In this document: piece by piece, positions 1 through 64,000 of the stretch | Position numbering within the stretch: position 1 is the stretch's first letter | Layout: each line of letters opens with the position of its first letter | Assembly (NCBI GenBank): GCA_000310025.1 | Contig: FN648151.1 | Location: 62,001 to 126,000 of the forward strand | Length of the DNA stretch: 64,000 bases | Direction: 5' to 3' | From: Ectocarpus siliculosus | Lineage: Eukaryota; Sar; Phaeophyceae; Ectocarpales; Ectocarpaceae | Notes under the pieces: generated by a model | The model's database searches: none | Told to the model about the DNA's origin: nothing | What the model saw: the letters and a program-made list of their open reading frames with translations, nothing else | Position numbers and translations under genes: made by a program

Positions 1-1
1 G

Positions 2-3000
2 CATACACAGAAATACCTCAGGCAGGATGCAGGCCGTTCGCGGGGACATGAATCCCGCGGACGCACGGATGCTCATCCGGGTGCCGGCGGGGGTAGCCAC
101 CGGAATGACGGGGGAGGTAGCCACCGGAATGCCGGGGGGGGGGACGCTTCTGACCGTGGCGGGCACACTCATCTCTCCTACTATGGTCCGACTAATAGCA
201 GGCAAGTACAGTATGGTATCGCAGGACAAAATGTGCCGTTTTTCCAGCAGCCGTGGGCCGTAGATGCGCTTGGAAACCCGTACCCGTTGAAGCCGCCGTT
301 CATGGGTCCTGGGGGTCAACAGTGGCCGGTGACAATGCAGGACCCGATTACTGTCGCTTCTGCCCAAATGTCTGCGGCCGCCATGCCCCCGGTCAGTTCT
401 TTGCCGCCTCACATCGCTGAAACGTCGGTCAAAGCGACCCAACCCATCGTTGACCACCCCGAGCCTGAGCTAGAACGTGCACGACAGCTATTGCATCACA
501 TGTCTTTGTCGAGTTTTCCCCAGCAGCGGCAACCGTCGGCGACGGCGTCGCCGTCGGTAGCGACTTTTGACGTTCCGTCGTCGAGACTGCCGTCGCCGAT
601 GTCGCCGATGTCGGTGCCGTCGCGGCCGGTACCGCCGTTGCGGATGCCGCCGCAGCCGGTGCTGCAGCCGTCGGTGCCGATGCCGCAGGTACCGCAGCCG
701 CCGGTGCCGCCGCCGCCGCAGCCGCAATCGTCGGTGCCGCCGCCACCGGTGCCGAGGCCGCCGGTGCCGCAGCCGCCGCAGCAGCAGCAGCTGCCGCCGC
801 CGCCGCCGTCGGTGCTGCAGCCGCCGGTACCGCTGGTGCCGCCGGTGCCGCCGGTGCCGCCGGTGCCGTAGCCGCCGGTGATGCCACAACAGCCAGTGCC
901 GTTAATAAAGTCAGAGTCACCGTCAGTAGCCTCCGCTTTGCCATCGCATACACCATCTGCCGCTGTGAAAACAGAGATACCGCCCCCCGCCTCCGTTGTG
1001 AAAACGGAGACGACACAGGTTTCTGGGGTGGTACCGACGCTCTCCCAACGTGTTTTGCCACAGGAACCACCGGTCTCGGCTATCGCGGTGTCGGTAGCGA
1101 GGCCACCGCTTCCGGCTGTGCACGCGGCCGCAAGCGATTCCGCTGATGACCGGGCACTGCCCCTGTCGTCTGCCGGTGCACGCACCGCGCAGGCACAGCT
1201 TGATGCAAACGCCGTTGCCGCCGCAGAGGCGTACGCCCTCAGCGTGCGCAAAGGATACGGCAAGCTTAAAGTGAACGAATTTTATGCGGTAGTGCCGCTC
1301 CCCCCGGCAGACTTTTCTGCCTTCGTTCGTTCGACCGAAAGTGTGTTGGCTGAAACCCTGTCGGCCGCCGATCCCTCCGGCAAGCAGACCATCAAGTCGC
1401 CCTCATGGGTGGCTGGATGGTATGCCCCCTTTCACAAGCGTGTCCTCATGGCCATTTCGAACCCTCAAGGCGCCAATGCCGCAACCCGCGAATTGGTGGA
1501 TTCTTCGTTTTCTCAGGTGAAACATTTCTTGGAGACGAAGGACAAGTCGGGGCCTTGGGCATACCGTCGGCTGCTCAAACTGCTCGCGGATGAGTGGGAA
1601 CCGAAAGATTTCAACCGGGGCATCGACAAGCTGCAGGATTTTGGTGTGCCCAACGGCACGCCGTACAGCAAATTCGTTTCGAAGTTTAAGGCGTTAGCAA
1701 TGTCGGAGTTGGCCTCGCATAGGGCTTTCGCGCCGGATCTGCGCATGGTACAGCGTGCGCTTCGGGACGCTTTGTTGGAGCAGTACCCGAATGTTCTCTC
1801 GTCTTTGCCGTTGAAAGAGAAGATTCTCCACAACGTGGTGTTTAGTGATCTGGATGAGCTTTGGGATGCTTTGTCGTCGGAGGAAGCACTAAAACACTCG
1901 CCCGCCTGCAACGGCGACCGTTATTTTACCACTGTCACCTCTGGGTTTTCATCGGCGCCTACACGAGCCATGACTGCGACCGTGGGGCAGCAGCGGCCGC
2001 CACCGCCGCCGCCGCTGCAGCCGTCCGCGTGGTCGCCGGGAACACAATTTCTCGCCGGGGTGATGGCTATCGACCCTGTGCCGTCCGATAACACATGTCC
2101 ATTCGAGCAGGACTACGACTGCTGGCCGTTGCGTGGTCACTACGGCTTTGTGTACAGCGTTGTGGCAAGTATGGCTAAGACGGACCCCCCTTTGTTTACA
2201 CCGCTGTTGACCCCTGCCGACCGAGCGCAAGCTCTGCGGCGATTTTCTGGCCAATGTCTCAACTGCGGGCAGGCGGGCCACAGCCTCAAAACTTGCCCGT
2301 ATGCTTTCACCAATTACACCGGCCTCTTAAACCCGGCCATTGCTTCGCACTCTGATAGCGTTCAGGTTTTTCAACGTTGGCAAAGCCGCATGAAGTCGCA
2401 CCGCCCGCGTGTACACAATAAAAATGGCCCGGGTAAGAGCAGCGGCCATACACAGGGCGACGGCAGCCGCTCTGGGAAACGTAACTCAACTACACACGCA
2501 CCACCTCCGGCGCCGGCCGTAGGCGCCGCCGCGACCCCGGCGCCCGCCGCCGTAGCTGGAACTCCGTACACTCGAAGTTCCGGAACCCCGCACTCGCGGG
2601 GTAACTCACACGCCGGTGACGGCCTTTTGCACACATCGCCGTCAACAGCACCGGGTGTGCGCTGTACGACTAGTTCCCAAGATGTTCGTATCACACAGAC
2701 GCCTTCGGGTTCGCCTACGTTAGTTTCCCATCCTTTTATTTCTCAGATGTCGCCTCACGCCTCATCACAGCCTGTTTTGGATGACCGACGTGACTCGTCG
2801 GCGCCGAATACAGCAGTCTTGTGGTGTGGGCGAAAGGCCGACCAGACTTCGGGTGTCTCACGGACGCTCGCCCCGATGTCTACGCCCCCCGGAGGCATGG
2901 CTCCGGCTTCTCCCACCGTTTCGGCGGCTCCGGGTGGTCTCGTCAACCACGCTGGAGCACAGGAACCTTCGGGACAACCGCAGGCCCGCCGCGGTGGCTC

Positions 3001-3622
3001 GAGTACGCTTGTACCCACCGCGCCCCCTCCGGACCCCTCGCGACGTTCCTCTACGGAGCACCAACGTCGCACGGTGCTGACTGCACCGCCGTTCCCGAGC
3101 GCAAGTAACGGTTTCCCCAAATCGGAAGGTTCATGTTCTTTGTCACGAAATAGCGGTCGCGAGCCTCCCGCGGCGGCTGACCATGTTGGTCGAGCGCCCG
3201 TGATGAAGGCCGCTTTTAATGAACGGGCCTACGCCGACGTTTTGCGCGAAAACGCCCGCTTAGACCGCTTGGTTTCGCACGCTTCTGCGGCTGGTTCACC
3301 GCTCTTGCCTGCCTCTCCTCGTAACCCACAATCCGGCCCGCCTTCGGGCGGCACCCAGATTGTCCTGCCGGTTGCCGGTGCCATTTCTCTTGACGATATT
3401 TCTTCAGGGAAGGTAAGCGCACCCGCGCGGCAGGCCCCTGTTTTTGACGGTTGTCAGGAATATTATAACGATGAGGTTTTCCTCTTTTGGAAACCGCCGT
3501 CCTTTCTGTCTAACTGGACGCCCTGTGAGTTCTCGGTTCATGGCATTCGCTACGTGTGCGGCGAACAGTTCATGATGGCGGAGAAAGCCCGCATTTTCGG
3601 CGATGATGCCGCTATGCCAAAA
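2..3622 (+). pseudogene. Gag-like protein, Pro-rich, CCHC zinc knuckle, N-terminal half of NADAR
   Basis: Frame 2 is open from the window edge to a TAG at 869-871 and continues in the same frame to 3799; real homology leaves this frame near 3619-3622. The first ~80 codons are Gly/Arg/His-rich with two G-G-G-S-H-R-N copies. About 580-870 encodes a low-complexity Pro/Val/Gln tract made of CCG-GTG-type triplets, with no cysteines. A capsid-like helical region follows (about 1230-1900), then a CCHC knuckle C-x2-C-x4-H-x4-C at 2255-2296, expected to bind RNA, then a long Ser/Pro/Thr-rich linker. The last ~50 codons (from 3470) are the start of a NADAR domain. The true start is outside the window. 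The TAG could be a mutation or a readthrough site, and nothing around it settles which. Confidence 0.8.
580..870 (+). repeat. Proline-coding low-complexity tract in gag
   Basis: Irregular triplet repeat dominated by CCG, GTG, CAG and GCC units encoding P-x-P-V-P type runs. The composition leaves several frames open on both strands, including an antisense Ala-rich frame (429-1070) and Arg/His-rich frames; these are by-products. It ends at the TAG 869-871. Confidence 0.85.
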
Positions 3623-3940
3623 TCATGGCTACCTCCGACCCGAGAGAACACAAGTCACTTGGTCGCAAGGTACGCGGTTTTGACCATGCTCTATGGGAAC
3701 TCCGGCGCGAGGATGTTGCCTTTTCGCTTTTGTATGCAACATTCGCCCAAAATGCTGACGCGCGTGAACGTTTGTTGGCTACGGGTGATAGACAGATAGC
3801 GGAGGCCAGTCCTTATGACGGATTGTGGGGCATTGGTGTTGATGCCTTCGATCCGCGTGCGGCGTCGCCCTCCAAGTGGACTGGTAAAAACCTTTTGGGC
3901 AAAGCGCTTGTTGCGACGCGCACGCTTCTGCGTGTGCGCC
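3470..3940 (+). other. NADAR (YbiA/DUF1768-like) domain, split by a -1 frame change
   Basis: Translated in frame 2 up to about 3620 and in frame 1 from 3622, this ~155-codon stretch matches the NADAR family from end to end. Visible landmarks are a start with F-L-S-N-W-x-P, a glutamate in GEQFMMAEKA, then DPREHKSLGRKV, the segment LLATGD, the EASPYDGLWG signature and a closing GKNLLGKAL. The length equals the usual single-domain size of about 150 residues, so the domain is complete apart from the frame change at the A4 run 3619-3622. Known family members act on ADP-ribose derivatives, including removal of ADP-ribose from guanine bases. The same family signals continue across the frame change, so it was one domain in the ancestor. 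A role for it in the element's life cycle is inference. Confidence 0.88.
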
Positions 3941-4853
3941 CGGTCGAACCCAATAAGCCTTTACGCCCTGAACACTCGGGGCAACCTGCCCCCGTGTGTC
4001 CCACTATCCACGAAATTGCGCCCCCGGGTGAGGACTCTTCGGCCAATGATTCCTCGCCCGAGGACACGCGTGGCCCGCTGGACGTGCCAGCCAACACGCC
4101 CGCGGACCACTCGAAACAGGTGCTGCATATTGCCTCGACTGCTTTTCGCGAAGCCGCCGCTTCCCCACCGCCGTTATTGGCGAAACACGGCCCAGATTTG
4201 GTGAGCGGTGATGTTTTAGTTGATTGCGATACCTCTACGACGCGAGTCCGCGTGCATAGTGGTACCGGAGCCGTGTGTACAGCGCCTGGTGTAGCCCTTT
4301 TGGACTCGGGCTCACCTTCATCTTTCATTAGTGATGCTTTCCTTGAAGCCATGGAGGCGTCAGGAGCTGCATCCGTCCACAGTCGTCGTTCGGTGCCCGT
4401 TCGGCAGTGGGGTGGTTTTGGCTCTGGCAATGCCCTTGAAACCACCTCATCCGTCGGCTGTCCGTTCAAATTTTTTATGGTGATAGTGCCACCGCTTCGT
4501 TAGCGGTCTGGGTGTATGTTGTCCCAGCTGCCGCCATGGGTCACGCCCTCCTTCTTGGACGTGATAGTTGGATGCGTTTAATTCTCGTTTGTCCACTACT
4601 TTGCCCACGCGGTCGGCAAGTGGACGCATTATGGAGAAACTTTCTCTGTCATCGGATTTTGCGGCAGGAGCTTCCGCGTATGTCGCTGGACCCTCCGCAT
4701 CGGGGCATCTTACTTCCTGTGGTACGCCGGCAGGAAGGGTGTCTCCCTTTCCGATAAACCCACTTTGACGAGGGTGAACCTCGTTCGCAACTCTGGCACC
4801 CCCGCTCTCACCGGCAACTATCTTGTCACATACCGAAACACGGCGCCCTCTCG
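3622..4853 (+). pseudogene. Pol N-terminal region: NADAR C-half, linker, aspartic protease, PR-RT spacer
   Basis: Frame 1 (3622-4503) holds the second half of NADAR, a linker of about 110 codons rich in Ser/Pro/Glu, and a retropepsin core with the active-site triad D-S-G at 4303-4311 in the context VALLDSGSPSSF. The C-terminal protease hallmark ALLLGRDSW is in frame 3 (about 4540-4570), after a -1 change at the T6 run 4471-4476. A further -1 change at a T run (4577-4579) moves the reading to frame 2, one between 4640 and 4745 to frame 1, and one near 4830-4845 to frame 3. An in-frame segment NLVRNSGTPALTG fits the region commonly found between protease and RT. The protease would process the polyprotein; this copy is non-functional as read. 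Confidence 0.8.
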
Positions 4854-6819
4854 GTGTCGGATGCGTTTGTTTCGGACGGGCCTCAACACATCCCATTGAC
4901 AGGGTGCGCCGAGCTGGAGCCAGGTGAGGTGCTTGGAGTGGCGACTGCCCCACTTGTGCAGATTCCGCTTGCGTCGATTGATCCTACACCGCAGACGGCC
5001 GAGGGTGTTGGGTTGAGTGACCCTCCGCCGCCAGCCCGTTCCGCGGATGGGCCGCCGTTTCGCGTGAATTCTTTGCATTCAAACATCCCGGTTGCGGATC
5101 CGGAGATTTCGGATTCTCCCGCGGTCTCACTGCCGCCGAAACCGCCGCCACCGGATCTGTTGGAACGCCTCTCAGAAGCGCAGCGAATGAGTTTTCGCGA
5201 GTTGTGGCAACGTTTGCCTGCACATTTGCACGATGTGACTTTTGATTTACATGACTCGGGTTGGACCCCGGAAGCCATCGACAGCCTGACGGATGTGCTG
5301 TGTGACTTTTCGGATGTGTTTTCGCGGTCACCGTCCGATTTCGGTTGCTGTTCCGTGAAACCGTTTCGTTTGGAAGTGCCCCCGGGCACGAAACCGTTGG
5401 TCTCGCGTCCCTATAGGCTCAACCCTCTGGTGGAGAAAAAGGTCGATGCAATTCTCGATCAATACCTTGCTGCGGGTCTTATTCAGCACTCGCAATCGCC
5501 GTGGGCGAGCCCTCTGGTTGTCATGCCTAAAAAGGACGGCAATCTGCGTTTGACCGTGAACTACAAAAAGCTTAACAAATTGTGCAGCCTTGGTCAACAA
5601 CCGCAGCCGCGAGTTGACCACATCATCGATTCCCTGTACAAGGGCAAGGTATTTTCCATTTTCGATCTTAACTCCGCTTTCCACCAAATCACCGTCGAAG
5701 AGGACACGGTTCAGCTTACGGCGTTTTGTACGCCCACGCAACTTTTCGAGTGGCTCCGCATGCCTCAGGGAAGCTCCGAGGCACCGTCGTGGTTCACCAT
5801 GGTCATCAACGAAGTGGTTAAAGGTCTGGACCATGTGCTACCTGGACGATGTGATTGTGTTTGACGCCGACCCCATCCACCATGTCGCCAACATACGGCT
5901 ATTTTTGGAGCGTTTGCGCAAGTTCAACCTCAAGCTTTCTCCTTTCAAGAGTCGCGTCGGCGCTAAGGAGGCTGTTTATTTAGGTCACACAATCTCCCCT
6001 GCGGGTGTTAGTCCTCGTGCCGATAAGGTCGAAGCCCTCACAAAAATGCCGCTGCCTAACAACGTCAAAAAGCTGCGTTCCTTGCTGGGTGGGCTTTCGT
6101 ATTACCGCAAAATCATCAAGGGTTTGGTCATGCGAGTGAAACCACTCACAGACCTTTTGCGTAAGGACGCGAAGTTTTGTTTTACGCCGGCTATGGCGGA
6201 TACCGTCAAAGAACTCTTGGCGAAACTGTCAGAACCTCCGGTTTTGGCTTTCCCGGATTGGGACGCTGTCGCAGATGGCAGCCGCCCTCTCCGGCTTTGC
6301 TGTGATGCCTGTATTGGTGCGGCCCTTGAACAGGAACAGGCCGATGGTTCCATCCGTCCCATTCTGTTCGTTAGCCGCGCTACGCTCGAATCCGAGCGCA
6401 ACTGGACAGTGCTCGACTTGGAAGCTGGAAGTATCGTGTGGGCAATTAAACGCTTACGCGGTTATTTTTGGTCCACGCACTTTCTGATTTATTCGGATCA
6501 CAAGGCTTTGGAGAGCATCGTCAAGGTGGGTGAACACAACGCCCGCGTCCAACGTTGGCTCGAGTTCCTTTCCTCGTTCAATTACACTCTTGTCTACCGC
6601 AAAGGCACTGCCAACGCCAATGCGGATTTTCTTTCGCGGTTGCCCTTGCCGGCAACCGACGCGGATAGACATGGTGACACCAGTATCGCAGTCGATGACG
6701 CCCGACTCTCGACTCTCGATATTTTGTCCGGATGGGGCCTCCCTCTTTCCTGTCTCCCTGCTTTGGATGTTATTGTTTTAAGCTCAGGGTTCGATCGCCT
6801 CCCGGATTGTCCATTGTGA
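4842..6819 (+). pseudogene. Reverse transcriptase - RNase H (Ty3/gypsy-type pol)
   Basis: Frame 3 (4842-5864) carries the RT N-terminal landmarks: DFSDVFS, SRPYRLNP, a GLIQHSQSPWASPLVV-type motif, PKKDG, FSIFDLNSAFHQI and the MPQG loop. A +1 change (or loss of two bases) near 5835-5860 passes to frame 1, where the catalytic YLDD lies at 5839-5850, followed by LGHTIS and the connection domain. RNase H follows from about 6290 with its acidic residues in CCDACIGAAL, LDLEAGSIVWA and YSDHKALE, and ends with the typical NADFLSRLP at about 6620-6645. The frame continues 60 codons to a stop at 6819 without integrase motifs. RT plus RH converts the RNA into DNA. Apart from the frame change, RT and RH look complete. 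Confidence 0.9.
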
Positions 6820-9228: not shown

Positions 9229-10744
9229 TCACCTCTTGCTGCGAACGTCAACCATACCGTTCTTCGCGTGCTGAGAACAGAACTCCGCCTTCTTGCTGCC
9301 GGCTGCACCATATGACGGGTACTTCGTGCACGACTGGTGGCCGCACCTCTTGCTGCGAACGTCAACCATACCGTTCCTCGCGTGCTGAGAACAGAAATCC
9401 GCCTTCTTGCCGCCGGCTGTACCATATGACGGTTGTCTCATGCACGACTGGTGGCCGCACCTCTGGTGGCGAACGTCAACCATACCGTTCTTCGCGTGCT
9501 GAGAACAGAACTCCGCCTTCTTGCTGCCGGCTGCACCATATGACGGGTACTTCATGCACGACTGGTGGCCGCACCTCATCCTGCGAACGTCAACCATACC
9601 GTTCCTCGCGTGCTGAGAACAGAACTCCGCCTTCTTGCTGCCGGCTGCACCAAATGACGGTCGTCTCATGCACGGCTGGTGGCCGCACCTCTGGTTGCGA
9701 ACGTCAACCATACCGTTCCTCGCGTGCTGAGAACAGAACTCCGCCTTCTTGCTGCCGGCTGCACCATATGACGGGTACTTCATGCACGACTGGTGGCTGC
9801 ACCTCTTGCTGCGAACGTCAACCATGCCCTGCCTCGCGTGCTGAGAACAGAACTCCGCCTTCTTGCTGCCGGCTGCACCAAATGACGGGCACTTCATGCA
9901 CGACTGGTGGCCGCACCTTTGGTTGCGTGCGTCAACCATACCGTTCCTCGCGTGCTGAGAACAGAACTCCGCCTTCTTGCTGCCGGCTGCACCAAATGAC
10001 GGGTACTTCATGCACGACTGTTGGCCGCACCTCATCCTGCGAACGTCAACCATACCGTTCCTCGCGTGCTGAGAACAGAACTCCGCCTTCTTGCTGCCGG
10101 CTGCACCAAATGACGGTCGTCTCATGCACGGCTGGTGGCCGCACCTTTGGTTGCGAACGTCAACCATACCGTTCCTCGCGTGCTGAGAACAGAACTCCGC
10201 CTTCTTGCTGCCGGCTGCACCAAATGACGGGTACTTCATGCACGACTGTTGGCCGCACCTCTTGCTGCGAACGTAAACCATACCGTTCCTCGCGTGCTGA
10301 GAACAGAACTCCGCCTTCTTGCTGCCGGCTGCACCAAATGACGGGCACTTCATGCACGACTGGTGGCCGCACCTTTGGTTGCGAACGTCAACCATACCGT
10401 TCCTCGCGTGCTGAGAACAGAACTCCGCCTTCTTGCTGCCGGCTGCACCATATGACGGTTGTGTCATGCACGACTGGTGGCCGCACTTCTTGTTGCGAAC
10501 GTTAACCATACCCTGCTTTGCATGCTGAGCACAGAACTCCACCTGCTTGCTGCCGGCAGTACCAAGAGACGCTCGTGTCATGCACCCGGGGTGGCTGCAG
10601 CGGCCGATGGGCGCCATACCCTGTTTGGCGCGCTTCGAGCACAAATCTGGCTTCGTGGCCGTGCAATGGCCGTGCCGTGCAGCCGTGCCCCTGGCAACAC
10701 CGGTGTCGTGTCTGCCCTTTGTGTCTGACGAATAGTCGCGCAGA
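9229..10744 (-). CDS. EsV-1-7 repeat protein, 12 tandem Cys/His repeats
   Basis: Minus-strand exon encoding twelve consecutive copies of a 38-residue unit C-x4-C-x16-C-x2-H-x12, the EsV-1-7 motif; typical cores read CGHQSCMKYPSFGAAG and EFCSQHARNGMVDV. Before the first full repeat is a divergent HC...C region. Upstream, a pyrimidine-rich tract ending in ctgcag (acceptor at 10745) suggests this is an internal or last exon beginning at 10744 in phase 2; the start exon was not found, and no in-frame ATG precedes the repeats. The frame ends in TGA 9229-9231. In brown algae the family includes the developmental regulator IMM, and the motif is thought to bind zinc; molecular function is unproven. 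The 114-bp units are nearly identical, which points to recent expansion. The 397-codon frame on the opposite strand is a shadow. Confidence 0.85.
9232..10600 (-). repeat. 114-bp tandem repeat array with four-unit higher-order pattern
   Basis: Twelve 114-bp units. Residues 6-10 of each unit (KCPSF, KYPSF/Y, RRPSF, KYPSF/Y) cycle in sets of four: units 3-6 and 7-10 have the same order, and the RRPSF...RRMR units 5 and 9 agree at nearly every residue. This gives a higher-order unit of about 456 bp, as expected from unequal exchange of four-unit blocks. Confidence 0.85.
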
Positions 10745-10794
10745 CTGCAGAAAAAAACGATGCAACAAAAGAACACGAGCAGCAACCAATGGCA

Positions 10795-11050
10795 AGGATA
10801 TGATTGCACGAAAAATTAAACCTGAAATGGTAGGACACAAATTAGGAGAATTTGTAGCAACACGAAAACCATTCATACCAAAAAAAAAAATACAACAAAA
10901 AAAAAAAAATGGCACAAAAAGCTCACCCTATTATTTTACGAACCACTGATAACCCATACCAAGGGCCAACTCATTGGAACGAAGCAAAATCTGATTACAT
11001 AATATCCACCATACATAAGCAATTCCAGTATTATTTTCCCACTTCGTACT
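10795..11050. other. A-rich segment present only in copy 1
   Basis: About 255 bases absent from the second unit copy. It contains two A-rich runs around 10879-10908 and no recognisable gene. It could be a small insertion or a deletion in copy 2; no clear target-site duplication was seen. Confidence 0.5.
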
Positions 11051-13380: not shown

Positions 13381-14941
13381 TATTATTAGCTGTGGATATC
13401 GATGATGCGATATATTATGTCACCTGCTGCCGGGACATGCCATGCATAAGAACAAGGAGCACCCTCTATACTCCAGTAAGTTTGTTTTTTTTCTTAATAT
13501 GACACAACGAATCCATCTCTATCATAGAAAAGAGTCTGAGACAGATTAGCAATGAATTCATAGCGAGCCTCAGAAAGTACCTGTATGTCTACGATTTCCC
13601 AGACAGCATATAGGGGCATCTTCCCTGTGGGTAACAGGCTCAACAAAACAGTTTGGTAGCTTTCATATATGTTATGTTGGGAAGGTGCAGAAGAAATGTG
13701 TTAGGTACTGTTGGATAGTCTGGCGTTTTGTGCGTGGCACCCTTTTAGTCGTAGGGCATGCGATCTTCCTCAATTTTCGAACTGTGGTACGCGTATGTAC
13801 CGGGTATACATGCATGTGCGCGGACACATTTCCGAGTATGTGCGGACACACGGGAGGAGTGGTCTCACCATTTTCTTACCGTTTTGTGTATTTTTTTGTT
13901 TTATTTAGTAGTTGAATTGAAACCTCTCATTATAACCCATCCATGAAGAAGTCGTTTTATACGCTAATACTTCATAAGTGCTGCAAAAACTATCCATGGA
14001 CGAAACCAGCAGTTCCGTTGTTGTTGTCTTCACCATCAATTACAATCCCGTTCGTTCTGCTCTCTCTACCCTATACCTTCTTCGTCTGTCCGTACTAATA
14101 TCAAGTATGGTATAGTCTGACACTTGACGCGGTCGACCCCCGCCGTGGTCACAGGCTAACTTACCTAAAAAAGTTACACGAAAATAAAAATTGACCGTAA
14201 CAAGGGTCCGCGAGTCAACGACAGATTAGTCTAGGAACCCCCGCTCACTTCAATACGCTACGCGAGGTAGTAGCTATAGACTAGACAATAAAGAAGAAAA
14301 AAATAGAGGCGACCTCGCGCGCCCCCGAAAAAAACGTCAGTCTTCGACCGGCACTTCTCACTACGCCCATCCATGCGCATGCACTTTTTGGTGCCGAGGG
14401 ACTCCATGCTTTCAAGAATGCCGCCAATCATCTCGTTGATATGTTTCTGTCGTTTACATACATACATGTAGTGCGTACGTCACACCCGAATAAAAAGGAG
14501 AACACACCAGAACGCGCTCTCCGCACGCTGGGAAAGAATCCGGGACTATTGAATGCGGACCCCAGAAGATGCGCTTTTCACAGTAGGTTTCCTCTCCGAA
14601 ACGAAAGAGACGGACGGGAGAGAGGGAAAAAAGAAGAAAGAAAAAGAGGCGTAGACTAGTACGCGTTCCCCGTTATGGACATTTAATAAGAGTCGTATTG
14701 TGGTAGTGGCAGGAACCTCTCTCTGCGATCAAGTCAGAAGGCCACCAGTCCCGGGGGCTCTTCTGTTGCACCCACCCTGGACGGACGTAGCTAGCAGTAG
14801 CGCATGTCCTGTATGTAGTAGACAACTAACGACTGCTGAAAATATTGGAGACCACGGATCAAACCGACAGGTGGGTCGTGGGTGGACGGGGGACCCTAAG
14901 GAACAGCCAGAATCAGCCTGTTTACATGTTTACATCCTAGT
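13381..14941. other. No recognisable gene
   Basis: AT-richer stretch with short frames only (for example 13685-13915 plus and 14258-14467 minus), none with recognisable motifs. It contains A/T runs and a purine-rich segment at about 14590-14650. Nothing else is seen. Confidence 0.6.
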
Positions 14942-15254
14942 GCCGGGCGCCCCGGTGGTCTAGTTGGTAGCCTCGTGACCTTCTAGAGGTCAGGTCAGGG
15001 GTTCGAATCCCGGCGTAGACGAGCTTTTCTTGCAAAGTGAGTTTTTCTCTCGCTTCCGCTCCTGGCCTAGTGGATAGCGCTAGTTCGTGTGTTCACAGAG
15101 GAAAGAGAGTGCTGAACTCATCTCGCAATAAAATTTGAAGGCGAAGTACCGCAGGAGAGGAGGGTAGAGAGGGGCTCTTCTGTATGACCACGGGCTGGAA
15201 TAAACGGCACTAGTGCTGTGAGCGCTGATTTGAAGTGAAGAACAAAAAACAAAA
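14942..15254 (+). mobile_element. tRNA-derived SINE, copy 1
   Basis: The head resembles a tRNA: box A-like tggtctagttgg at about 14955 and a near-perfect box B ggttcgaatcc at 15000-15010, the internal RNA polymerase III promoter layout. A unique body of about 230 bp follows and contains a second box A-like stretch tggcctagtggatagcgc at 15063-15080. The 3' end is A-rich (aacaaaaaacaaaat). The same head and body occur at 18418-18745 and 41446-41771. Short atcct sequences flank both ends and may be a target-site duplication. The head does not fold as a clean tRNA without mismatches, so this is not a tRNA gene. Confidence 0.85.
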
Positions 15255-18417: not shown

Positions 18418-18745
18418 TTTTTTTTTTTTTTTTTTTTTGCCTTCGCTTCAAATCAGCGCTCACAGCACAAGTGCCGTTTACTCCAACCCGTGGTCTCACA
18501 GAAGACCCCTCTCTACTCTCTACCCTCCCCTCCTGCGGTACTTTGCCTTCGATTTTTAATGCGAGAAGAATCCAGCACTCTCTTCCCTCTGTGTACACAC
18601 GAACTAGCGCTATCCACTAGGCCAGGAGCGGAAGCGAGAGAAAAACTCACTTTGCAAGAAAAGCTCGCTTACGCCGGGATTCGAACCCCTGACCTGGCCT
18701 CTAAAAGGTTTCGAGGTTACCAACTAGATCACCGGGGCGACCGGC
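18418..18745 (-). mobile_element. tRNA-derived SINE, copy 2
   Basis: Full-length minus-strand copy: tRNA-like head at 18660-18745 with box B (ggattcgaacc on the plus strand), the same body including the second box A-like stretch, and a pure 21-base poly-A tail (T run 18418-18438 on the plus strand). A pure tail suggests a relatively young insertion mobilised by a LINE. A T run of 13 follows the head immediately (18746-18758), so it probably inserted in an A/T run. Confidence 0.88.
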
Positions 18746-19617
18746 TTTTTTTTTTTTTCTTTGTTTTGGACCATGTTAAACAACCCATCCGCCGCACGAG
18801 TGCTGGGAGCGGACGCAATGGCGGCGGGAGCGCGCGGAATACTGATACGTGACGCGGAGAACTGGGTGGGGCTGCAACAGATAGTGGCGGAGGACGCCGA
18901 GGCAACGGCAGAAATGGCACCGGCAGAGTCAACCGCAGTGGAGGGGGTCCCGCGAGTCCACAAGGGCACGGGCTGTGCCTCAAGGCGTTGCCAACGATAT
19001 GTTTGCTCATTACGCGGACAAAGTTGTTTAACAATGAAAGCTCAATTCCAGCGTGGGAAACGGGGAAGACGTCCGTGGTTGCGTGTAACCCTCAGCTAGC
19101 TTGTTTGTTTGTGTTGCTCATCGGAGAAGTAAAGGCTTGTACGGGAGAAGGCTAGCAACATGCAATCGGGGTACAGAGCACACGGCGGAGCCATTGGTTA
19201 TGATGGTGGCGATGTCTGGTCATGCGACGCTGCCCGATTACGTCCCACTATCCTCGTTCCGTAGCGGCCGTGAAGTCAGAGTGTTGAGGCAAAAGTCAGG
19301 ATCTGCGAGCCTGTGGAGAGATTGTCAAGACGTTGTGGCGGAAACAAAGGACGTTGCCTTGCACTCGCTTCAGGGCGGAAGGGCCTATGCCCTTGTGGTT
19401 GAGAGGTTTGCAACGAGGTTTAGAAGACAGGGAGGTGGAAGTCAGATGCGTATGAACCAGTTACATAGTAGCGGGGAGGGTTCACGACCTGTGCATTGTG
19501 TATTAGGCGATAAGAAAAGGAGTGGTGAGACAGCAGGGGGAAAACATGGTGTGGGGTAGTGGAATGAAGATACTCTGTTCTACTGTGGCGAGGATCTCAT
19601 GACGACTTCGGATCGGA
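18746..19617. other. No assigned gene
   Basis: Plus frames at 18761-19099 (113 codons, Ala/Glu-rich, acidic middle) and 19101-19559 follow each other, but no motif, splice pattern or paralogue was recognised. Treated as unassigned. Confidence 0.35.
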
Positions 19618-41445: not shown

Positions 41446-41771
41446 TTTTTTTTTTCTTTGTCTTCACTTCAAATCAGCGCTTACAGCACTATAGTACCGT
41501 TTACTCCAACCCGTGGTCACACAGAAGCGCCCCTCTCTACCCTCCCCTCCTGCGGTACTTTGCCTTCAATTTTTAATGCGAGAAAAGTTCAGCACTAACT
41601 TTCTCCCCTCTGTGTACACACGAACTAGCGCTATCCACTAGGCCAGAAGCGGAAGCGAGAGAAAAATTCACTTTGCAAGAAAAGCTCGCTTACCCCGGGA
41701 TTGGAACCCCAGACCTGACCTCTGGAAGGTTTCGAGGATACCAACTAGACTAGACCACCGGGGCGACCGGC
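41446..41771 (-). mobile_element. tRNA-derived SINE, copy 3
   Basis: Minus-strand copy with tail T run 41446-41455 interrupted by C/G, the same body, and a tRNA-like head at 41685-41771 with a mutated box B (ggattggaacc on the plus strand). It is flanked by the 7-bp direct repeat tcaccat (41440-41446 and 41772-41778), a target-site duplication that fixes the ends. It looks older than copy 2. Confidence 0.88.
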
Positions 41772-63111: not shown

Positions 63112-64000
63112 AGCGCCGCCACCAACCACGTCCGCACAGCAACCGCTAATTACTCGACGCTTGCTGGCTCCAACACGCCAACTGCGGCACTGCCCGCTTG
63201 TTGGATGCTGTGGCTCGGCGTGCCGGTGCTGCTCCTGCGGAGGTGCTTGGCGGCGGCGCTGCGGCTCTGTGTAACCACTTTTCTCTTCCTTATTCCCACC
63301 GGCGTGTTTGAGGTTCCCTTGCTAGCCTTTGTAGGGCTTTCAACGCCAACCGCAACCGCGGATGACTCCACAACGGCGGTATTGCACGCCCTCCGTCCCG
63401 GTGCCGCCGACAGCACCACAGGGAGAACTCCGCGCGTCAGCCTTTGGCACGCGTGTACTTCGCCCAGCGCACGACAGCTCCACTTCTGCTACCTCAATAA
63501 CCCCACCGATGCCGACAACCGATGCTTCCATCGGCTCTCCCCATTCTCGCACTGCTAGCCACGCCCCGCCTAGTACTGCCACCCCAACACAAGGAGAACT
63601 GCAACACGTCTGCCACGGACACACAAGTACTTCGCGCAGCACACGACAAAAACGCCTGTGCCTCCGTCAACACCCCCAAGCGTCGACGACAACCGGTGTT
63701 TCTACGTTTTCTACCGGCTCTCGCAACAGCGGCACTTCGAGGTCACCTCCACCTTGCAGCACTACGTAGATATGACTACAGTCGATCCTGCCGTTTTGCT
63801 AGCCGAGAGCGTAGCTCTCTTGAATCCTTCGTGGAGATGTGGGAGAGGTCGGTGAGGCTCCGTATTCTCGAATCTAGAGTTGGTCCCTCAAATGGATTGC
63901 TATTTTCTCCCCTCTTTCGGGTTTTAGCCTCTTCGTGTATGTCCCCTCAGGGTTGGGCTAGTGTAACGGTATTTGGACCCTTGAACCAAGATATCATTCG
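63112..64000 (+). other. Unassigned, possible repeat ORF at window edge
   Basis: A plus frame 63043-63558 and a following frame 63362-63769 are Ser/Thr/Pro-r rich, without a known domain. Two diverged tandem blocks of about 170 bases (about 63395-63555 and 63560-63735) share gagaact, tacttcgc and a caaccg-tg/tt end. The last frame (63658-63855) has a helical segment (TSTLQHYVDMTTVDPAVLLAESVALL). It might be the gag of another retroelement extending beyond the window, but there is no zinc knuckle or RT to prove it. Confidence 0.3.

Follow-up and report, generated by a model that had tools for sequence, protein, structure and literature searches.

NADAR domains hydrolyze guanine-linked ADP-ribose (ADPr) in DNA, an activity that extends to the YbiA-type NADAR of an oomycete (PMC11543638), and they hydrolyze guanine-linked ADPr in RNA as well. 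What NADARs and the ADP-ribosylation of nucleic acids do in eukaryotes has been described as an open question. Retroelements bearing the domain are also on record: Gypsy elements in Ectocarpus and Tx1 long interspersed nuclear elements (LINEs) in Crassostrea gigas (Genome Biology, September 2025; PMC12477816). We analyzed 64,000 nucleotides of the Ectocarpus siliculosus genome (assembly GCA_000310025.1, contig FN648151.1, positions 62,001 to 126,000, forward strand), hereafter the window. To judge from its sequence, the window contains a copy, dead and truncated at its 3' end, from a multi-family Ty3/gypsy lineage with a NADAR in Pol. The first-pass annotation of the window had proposed the capture of a NADAR by a Ty3/gypsy-type element. 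Indeed, across the genome the domain appears fixed in the lineage, with its active-site residues kept and selection on it apparently intact.

The NADAR-in-Gypsy architecture is already published, and the statement of the first-pass annotation that no Ty3-type element of this kind had been described was mistaken, as PMC12477816 describes Ectocarpus Gypsy elements with the domain. For the NADAR-bearing Gypsy lineage of Ectocarpus sp. 7, of which Gypsy-12_Ec32 is an example, the nearest relatives of the NADAR are bacterial, as here; a chromodomain is reported there, whereas we found only a weak match. The C. gigas LINEs also captured a NADAR but are non-LTR (long terminal repeat) elements with a NADAR-like ORF1 rather than a NADAR in Pol. 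The Phytophthora nicotianae NADAR (PDB 8bau; PMC11543638) is YbiA-type and has the same eight ligand residues; it is free-standing, 31–42% identical to the genome matches, and lies on a long branch outside the retroelement clade. NADARs of RNA-virus polyproteins (PMC9503650) likewise place an ADPr domain beside a polymerase, but the viruses are positive-strand and the enzyme is an RNA polymerase rather than a reverse transcriptase (RT). Finally, Tj1 of Schizosaccharomyces japonicus and the type C retroviruses have a Gag/Pol stop codon, as here; the available sections of PMC4600332 mention no NADAR in them. Among the titles listed by literature searches, nothing else was relevant to NADAR or YbiA in retroelements. 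The main text of PMC12477816 does not mention a stop codon, readthrough, or frameshift (term search), and its available sections contain no active-site or selection analysis. As far as the literature searches go, three of the results below are additions: the stop codon with its implied readthrough, the count of active-site residues, and the test for selection.

The NADAR domain of the window copy

The Pfam NADAR profile (PF08719) matched the window in two adjoining frames that together span 3485–3933 (Table 1). The N-terminal piece covers profile positions 2–59 in the frame of Gag and alone falls under the 35.1-bit cut-off; the C-terminal piece covers positions 63–163 (E 3.2e-29). The domain is 98.2% identical in DNA, over 510 nt and with one gap, to its counterpart in locus L023, a sibling copy, and was re-found by a genome-wide profile search (G000:C45:65601-65933, 110.2 bits). 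By eye, all eight residues that contact ADPr in the Phytophthora enzyme are present across the two frames: the equivalents of E43 and K50, a Glu and a Lys, fall in the N-terminal part, and those of R79, W89, R93, E125, D130, and W133 in the C-terminal part. The Pfam matches and the L023 alignment thus bear out the predicted placement of the NADAR between the CCHC knuckle and the retropepsin, on the same strand and in the same order, the retropepsin match being weak. The domain had also been called complete. It is full-length but not in one frame, as the frame change falls inside it.

Genome-wide linkage of NADAR and RT

The genome (189,456,909 bases, 492 contigs) was searched with the NADAR profile, and the best 150 of 230 candidates were scored. 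It contains at least 150 NADAR matches, every listed one being above 35.1 bits. A second search used one 158-residue RT piece, with the best 150 of 419 candidates scored. When the two lists were crossed, 124 of the 150 listed RT matches were preceded on their own strand by a NADAR no more than 6 kb away, and in 117 cases the distance was 1400–1800 nt. Five of the remaining 26 gain a NADAR from further lists (C63, C11:745234, C486, C24:670721, and C54). The other 21 stand outside the NADAR count; one of these, C396, is too close to the contig start to tell. Conversely, 27 of the 150 listed NADAR matches have no partner among the listed RT matches, including the window copy with its broken RT. 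The number of NADAR matches and their fixed spacing to RT exclude a one-off nested insertion, the outcome that the first-pass annotation had named as its refutation.

Two NADAR matches, G000:C3:3913787 and C489:435177, lie within open frames of 10,887 and 6,365 residues, respectively, far beyond the length of one element.

Active site and enzyme class

In a search of the PDB with one retroelement NADAR, the Phytophthora structure matched with an E value of 4.3e-18 and E. coli YbiA with 2.5e-10. In the Phytophthora enzyme, E43, K50, R79, W89, R93, E125, D130, and W133 contact ADPr directly or via water, and the YbiA subfamily is defined by a catalytic glutamate, rather than Asp or His, at the position of E125 (PMC11543638). 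We evaluated these positions in 50 copies, mostly high-scoring, from the 150 listed, three of which contain a stop codon. All eight residues were kept in 43 of the 47 stop-free copies. The exceptions were L034 and L035, which are out of frame in mid-domain, L036, which is incomplete, and L037, which matches weakly and has an Asp-to-Gly change. Glu occupied the E125-equivalent position in 47 of 47, placing these domains in the YbiA subfamily. Based on these residues, the retroelement NADAR looks enzymatically alive.

Selection on the domain

Selection was evaluated in 20 loci, yielding 19 NADAR rows (after removal of one that contained a stop), 19 full-length RT rows, and 16 rows of the linker preceding NADAR (rows with stops were dropped). 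Within families, the uncorrected ratio of nonsynonymous to synonymous differences (pN/pS) was 0.406 for NADAR (36 pairs), 0.306 for RT (35 pairs), and 0.959 for the linker (20 pairs). Between families, the corresponding values were 0.358 (135 pairs), 0.354 (136 pairs), and 0.789 (100 pairs), which are rough because synonymous sites were saturated and the linker aligned poorly. In a separate pairwise comparison, synonymous saturation affected 686 of 903 pairs. There, the dN/dS ratio was 0.124 for 79 pairs at dS 0.05–0.2 and 0.389 for 126 pairs below 0.05; 12 further pairs fell outside both bins. By pN/pS, NADAR is constrained about as RT is, unlike the adjoining linker, and is under purifying selection like that on RT.

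The identities of NADAR and RT also grouped the families much alike, L025 with L023 and L020 with L028 and L026, which fits joint inheritance. Within families, pS was 0.029 for NADAR and 0.054 for RT. Such few synonymous differences indicate that the lineage spread recently.

Origin of the domain

A tree was built from 10 retroelement NADARs, 36 from viral contigs, and nine from bacterial contigs, together with 8bau and YbiA. The viral rows were chosen from 80 loci kept of 185; of the 11 bacterial loci, the tree did not include L142, and L149 was excluded because it contains stops. The retroelement NADARs formed one clade (support 100/99), recovered in 100% of 200 bootstrap trees. This clade sits amid the bacterial and viral-contig rows, at a tentative position, and 8bau and YbiA are on long branches. 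The single clade makes a one-time capture of the NADAR by the lineage likely. Identity of the retroelement domains to bacterial matches was 48–53%, compared with the 31–42% to the oomycete NADAR. These identities and the tree agree with PMC12477816, in which blastp searches outside Ectocarpus returned almost only bacterial hits. Two tested domains matched phrog_1017, a family of phage proteins that has no named function.

An origin from a host gene was considered using the oomycete NADAR segment as the query, with the best 150 of 183 candidates scored. Three places emerged beyond the earlier lists: C54, where the NADAR lies 1.8 kb before an RT match, and L150 and L151, both decayed members of the family to which the window copy belongs. 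This origin was rejected on the matches listed, among which no separate cellular NADAR gene was present, although introns or candidates beyond the best 150 could hide one.

A conserved stop codon between Gag and NADAR-Pol

In 14 of 20 loci, a stop codon lies behind the knuckle and in frame with NADAR, 876–1332 nt upstream of it; L033 is among these loci and has no knuckle match. Using probes derived from UGA copies, we found UGA followed by C at the Gag/Pol junction in all 25 distinct genome copies, from five families, in which the probes located the site, repeat places being counted once. Overall, UGA-C occurs in 26 of 27 places, including a fragment at window position 63357, and the sole exception is the window copy. 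The probes did not find the junction in L008, L021, L034, L036, or L037; for L034 and L036, just 1 kb of upstream sequence was covered. Of the six other loci among the 20, five (L014, L016, L019, L022, and L029) have a disturbed frame between the stop and NADAR, and the sixth is L021. Gag and Pol thus occupy one frame with a single conserved stop between them, the arrangement expected of readthrough. UGA-C is a leaky context. A conserved UGA-C ahead of NADAR-Pol implies that the enzyme should be a readthrough product. In the window copy, the serine codon that replaces the siblings' stop leaves Gag and the start of NADAR in one open frame. For Tj1, removal of the stop at the end of Gag left virtually no transposition in S. 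pombe (PMC4600332).

A possible G+C-rich stem of five pairs lies 3' of the UGA, with 96% of cells paired and a single double change. Its slid versions scored 24–72%, compared with 92.6%. Support for the stem was not beyond chance: 204 of 500 shuffles with dealt-out letters reached values as high as those observed.

Element architecture and other features of the window

The near-intact copies L020 and L026, scanned in pieces, contain NADAR, RT, RNase H, H2C2, and rve in that order, giving an overall layout of Gag, in-frame stop, and NADAR-RT-RNase H-integrase. The RT-RNase H-integrase order is that of Ty3/gypsy (Metaviridae), to which we assign the elements by domain order; for Ectocarpus, the placement of the lineage comes from PMC12477816. 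The protease is weakly recognized: the window's RVP_2 match (Table 1) and an Asp_protease_2 match in L026 (E 0.092) are both below cut-off, and Pfam gave no protease match in L020. A weak chromodomain match follows the integrase core in L026 (90-1490, minus strand; E 0.012, below cut-off). In L026 (1980-3329, minus strand) and L020 (6651-8111, plus strand), approximately 440–470 residues without a Pfam match separate RNase H from the integrase zinc domain. In typical Ty3 elements, this interval is much shorter. The stretch is possibly an extra domain.

Table 1. Coordinates of the element copy in the window and of a repeat that brackets one NADAR-element copy.
Feature	Position	Strand	Evidence or remark
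Body of the broken Ty3/gypsy copy	1..6702	+	DNA identity to six siblings; 5' end beyond the window, stops before any integrase
Gag region, frame 2	878..2605	+	Open reading frame list, stop positions
Gag CCHC zinc knuckle CLNCGQAGHSLKTC	2255..2296	+	Motif search
Gag/Pol junction	2606..2608	+	Serine codon in the window copy, UGA-C in siblings
NADAR N-terminal part, frame 2	3485..3622	+	PF08719, 28.2 bits; tblastn against L023 NADAR, 95.7% over 46 aa
NADAR C-terminal part, frame 1	3613..3933	+	PF08719, 102.7 bits; tblastn against L023 NADAR, 97.2% over 107 aa
Retropepsin-like stretch with DSG motif	4231..4350	+	RVP_2, E 0.0065, 16.7 bits, under the 20.3 cut-off
Reverse transcriptase, first part, frame 3	5526..5834	+	RVT_1, 7.4e-18
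Reverse transcriptase, last part, frame 1	5821..5994	+	RVT_1, 1.8e-6
RNase H	6283..6579	+	RT_RNaseH, 2.8e-26
315-nt repeat	L009:7311-7625, L010:7874-8188, L021:1638-1946 (oriented)		Brackets one NADAR-element copy; 95% copy at L021

The window copy has six siblings, L021–L024, L027, and L033, at 94–97% DNA identity over long stretches; L033 also matches in one 1.65-kb piece at 89%. Sibling matches stop at window position 6702 (L021, L023, L024, and L033), 6689 (L027), or 6336 (L022), whereas the mutual match of L023 and L024 continues up to 9989. The window copy therefore lacks the integrase end. Stop positions also place an in-frame stop at 869-871 in the 5' part of its Gag.

A copy on C14 is flanked by 315-nt direct repeats (two mismatches, 10.9-kb outer span), themselves flanked by CTCT (by eye). 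The repeat is absent from the compared stretches, which include 3.5 kb before NADAR, of the family-mates L015 and L017–L020, and a 95% identical copy adjoins L021, a member of a different family. Based on these two observations, the repeat may be something other than an LTR of the element itself. No comparable direct-repeat pair was found between L012 and L013.

Elsewhere in the window, positions 63357-63758 (plus strand) hold a fragment of another NADAR-element family, 78–80% identical to L028 and L014, that retains the UGA-C junction. A repeat of approximately 320 nt occurs at 14941-15254, 18424-18748, and 41446-41771; it is also found in L021 beside an element copy, at 89–93% identity. An open reading frame at 9229-10809 (minus strand) encodes 526 residues with 12 cysteine-rich EsV-1-7 motifs arranged in a 114-nt tandem array. 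EsV-1-7 motifs are typical of brown algae, and they are abundant in this genome (880 first-look candidates, of which the best 150 were scored).

Proposed role of the NADAR and alternatives

Based on the above, we propose that the lineage took in a YbiA-type NADAR once and keeps it as a readthrough-made particle enzyme that removes guanine-linked ADPr, a reading we hold tentatively and at somewhat less than even confidence. Most ribosomes would stop at the UGA, yielding Gag, and a minority would read through to yield Gag-NADAR-Pol. The NADAR would then be packaged into the virus-like particle alongside the RNA, in the same small dose as RT. There it would hydrolyze ADPr off guanine in the element's RNA or single-stranded complementary DNA (cDNA), lifting blocks to reverse transcription. 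The choice of this bond reflects the published activities of NADARs on guanine adducts in DNA and RNA. The first-pass annotation had likewise suggested that the element may erase ADP-ribosylation of its nucleic acid or counter a host NAD-based defence, and both roles are conjectural. A bolder version is that brown-algal cells ADP-ribosylate guanines in the RNA or cDNA of retroelements as a form of antiviral defence, which the lineage counters with its particle-borne eraser, made only by UGA readthrough together with RT. We regard that version as speculative and rather unlikely. By title, the literature on NADAR or YbiA in retroelements and on brown algae yielded no retrotransposon counter-defence in which guanine-linked ADPr is erased.

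Several observations weigh against the proposed role. We know of no ADP-ribosylated element RNA or cDNA. The genome gave no match to DarT (PF14487), the partner of NADAR in DarT-NADAR toxin-antitoxin pairs, in six frames, introns being disregarded, and only four PARP matches, all short and weak. The window copy has a serine codon in place of the UGA, and folding energies after the UGA are no better than those of shuffled sequences (z −1.03 to 1.34). The active-site columns are not uniquely conserved, as 39 of 150 columns have one residue in at least 98% of copies. In L034 (C89:161521) and L035 (C46:327197), the NADAR is out of frame in its middle and in frame at both ends; the open frames around it are 2346 and 1055 residues long, respectively. 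The best NCBIfam model for five tested domains, one per family, was TIGR02464, a riboflavin-intermediate N-glycosidase. All five exceeded its cut-off, such that the bond cut is not settled by sequence. Finally, NADARs may also act on free ADPr derivatives (PMC9503650).

This last activity underlies an alternative that we consider unlikely yet worth serious weight, namely that the NADAR destroys free ADPr-type signals or toxic by-products, such as NAD-based alarm molecules of the host or RNA-repair products, rather than acting on element nucleic acid. Phage NADARs have been argued to hit mainly soluble ADPr derivatives (PMC9503650), and the relatives of the retroelement domain on bacterial and viral contigs, together with the two phrog_1017 matches, are consistent with such a function. 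However, placement in Gag-Pol behind a readthrough stop suits a particle enzyme better than a cytosolic scavenger, and for NADARs within polyproteins of eukaryotic RNA viruses PMC9503650 itself prefers macromolecular targets. Removal of ADPr from proteins, either the element's own or host chromatin proteins at the integration site, is more doubtful. The weak chromodomain-like match and the chromodomains of the Ectocarpus lineage (PMC12477816) would put Pol on chromatin, where PARPs act, and the genome has its four weak PARP matches; by contrast, the NADAR literature reports activity on guanine adducts and riboflavin intermediates (PMC9503650) and, in the sections available, no protein de-ADP-ribosylation.

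A non-enzymatic role, in which the NADAR would be an RNA-binding or spacer module of Pol that retains the fold, appears improbable. The active-site columns are among the 39 near-invariant ones, and structure could explain part of that conservation, but the eight ligand residues are kept together in most stop-free copies while the mean frequency of the commonest residue over the 150 columns is 0.73. That the domain is a one-off nested insertion or chance juxtaposition at this locus is scarcely credible: the window copy is itself broken, but the abundance of NADAR matches and their fixed distance to RT speak against an isolated event.

Returning to the proposed particle enzyme, an eraser that is under RT-like selection, keeps its catalytic residues, and lies behind a readthrough stop suggests that ADPr marks hit the replication of these elements. 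This opens the question to tests that require just a reporter and the small domain in purified form, with no need for a live element.
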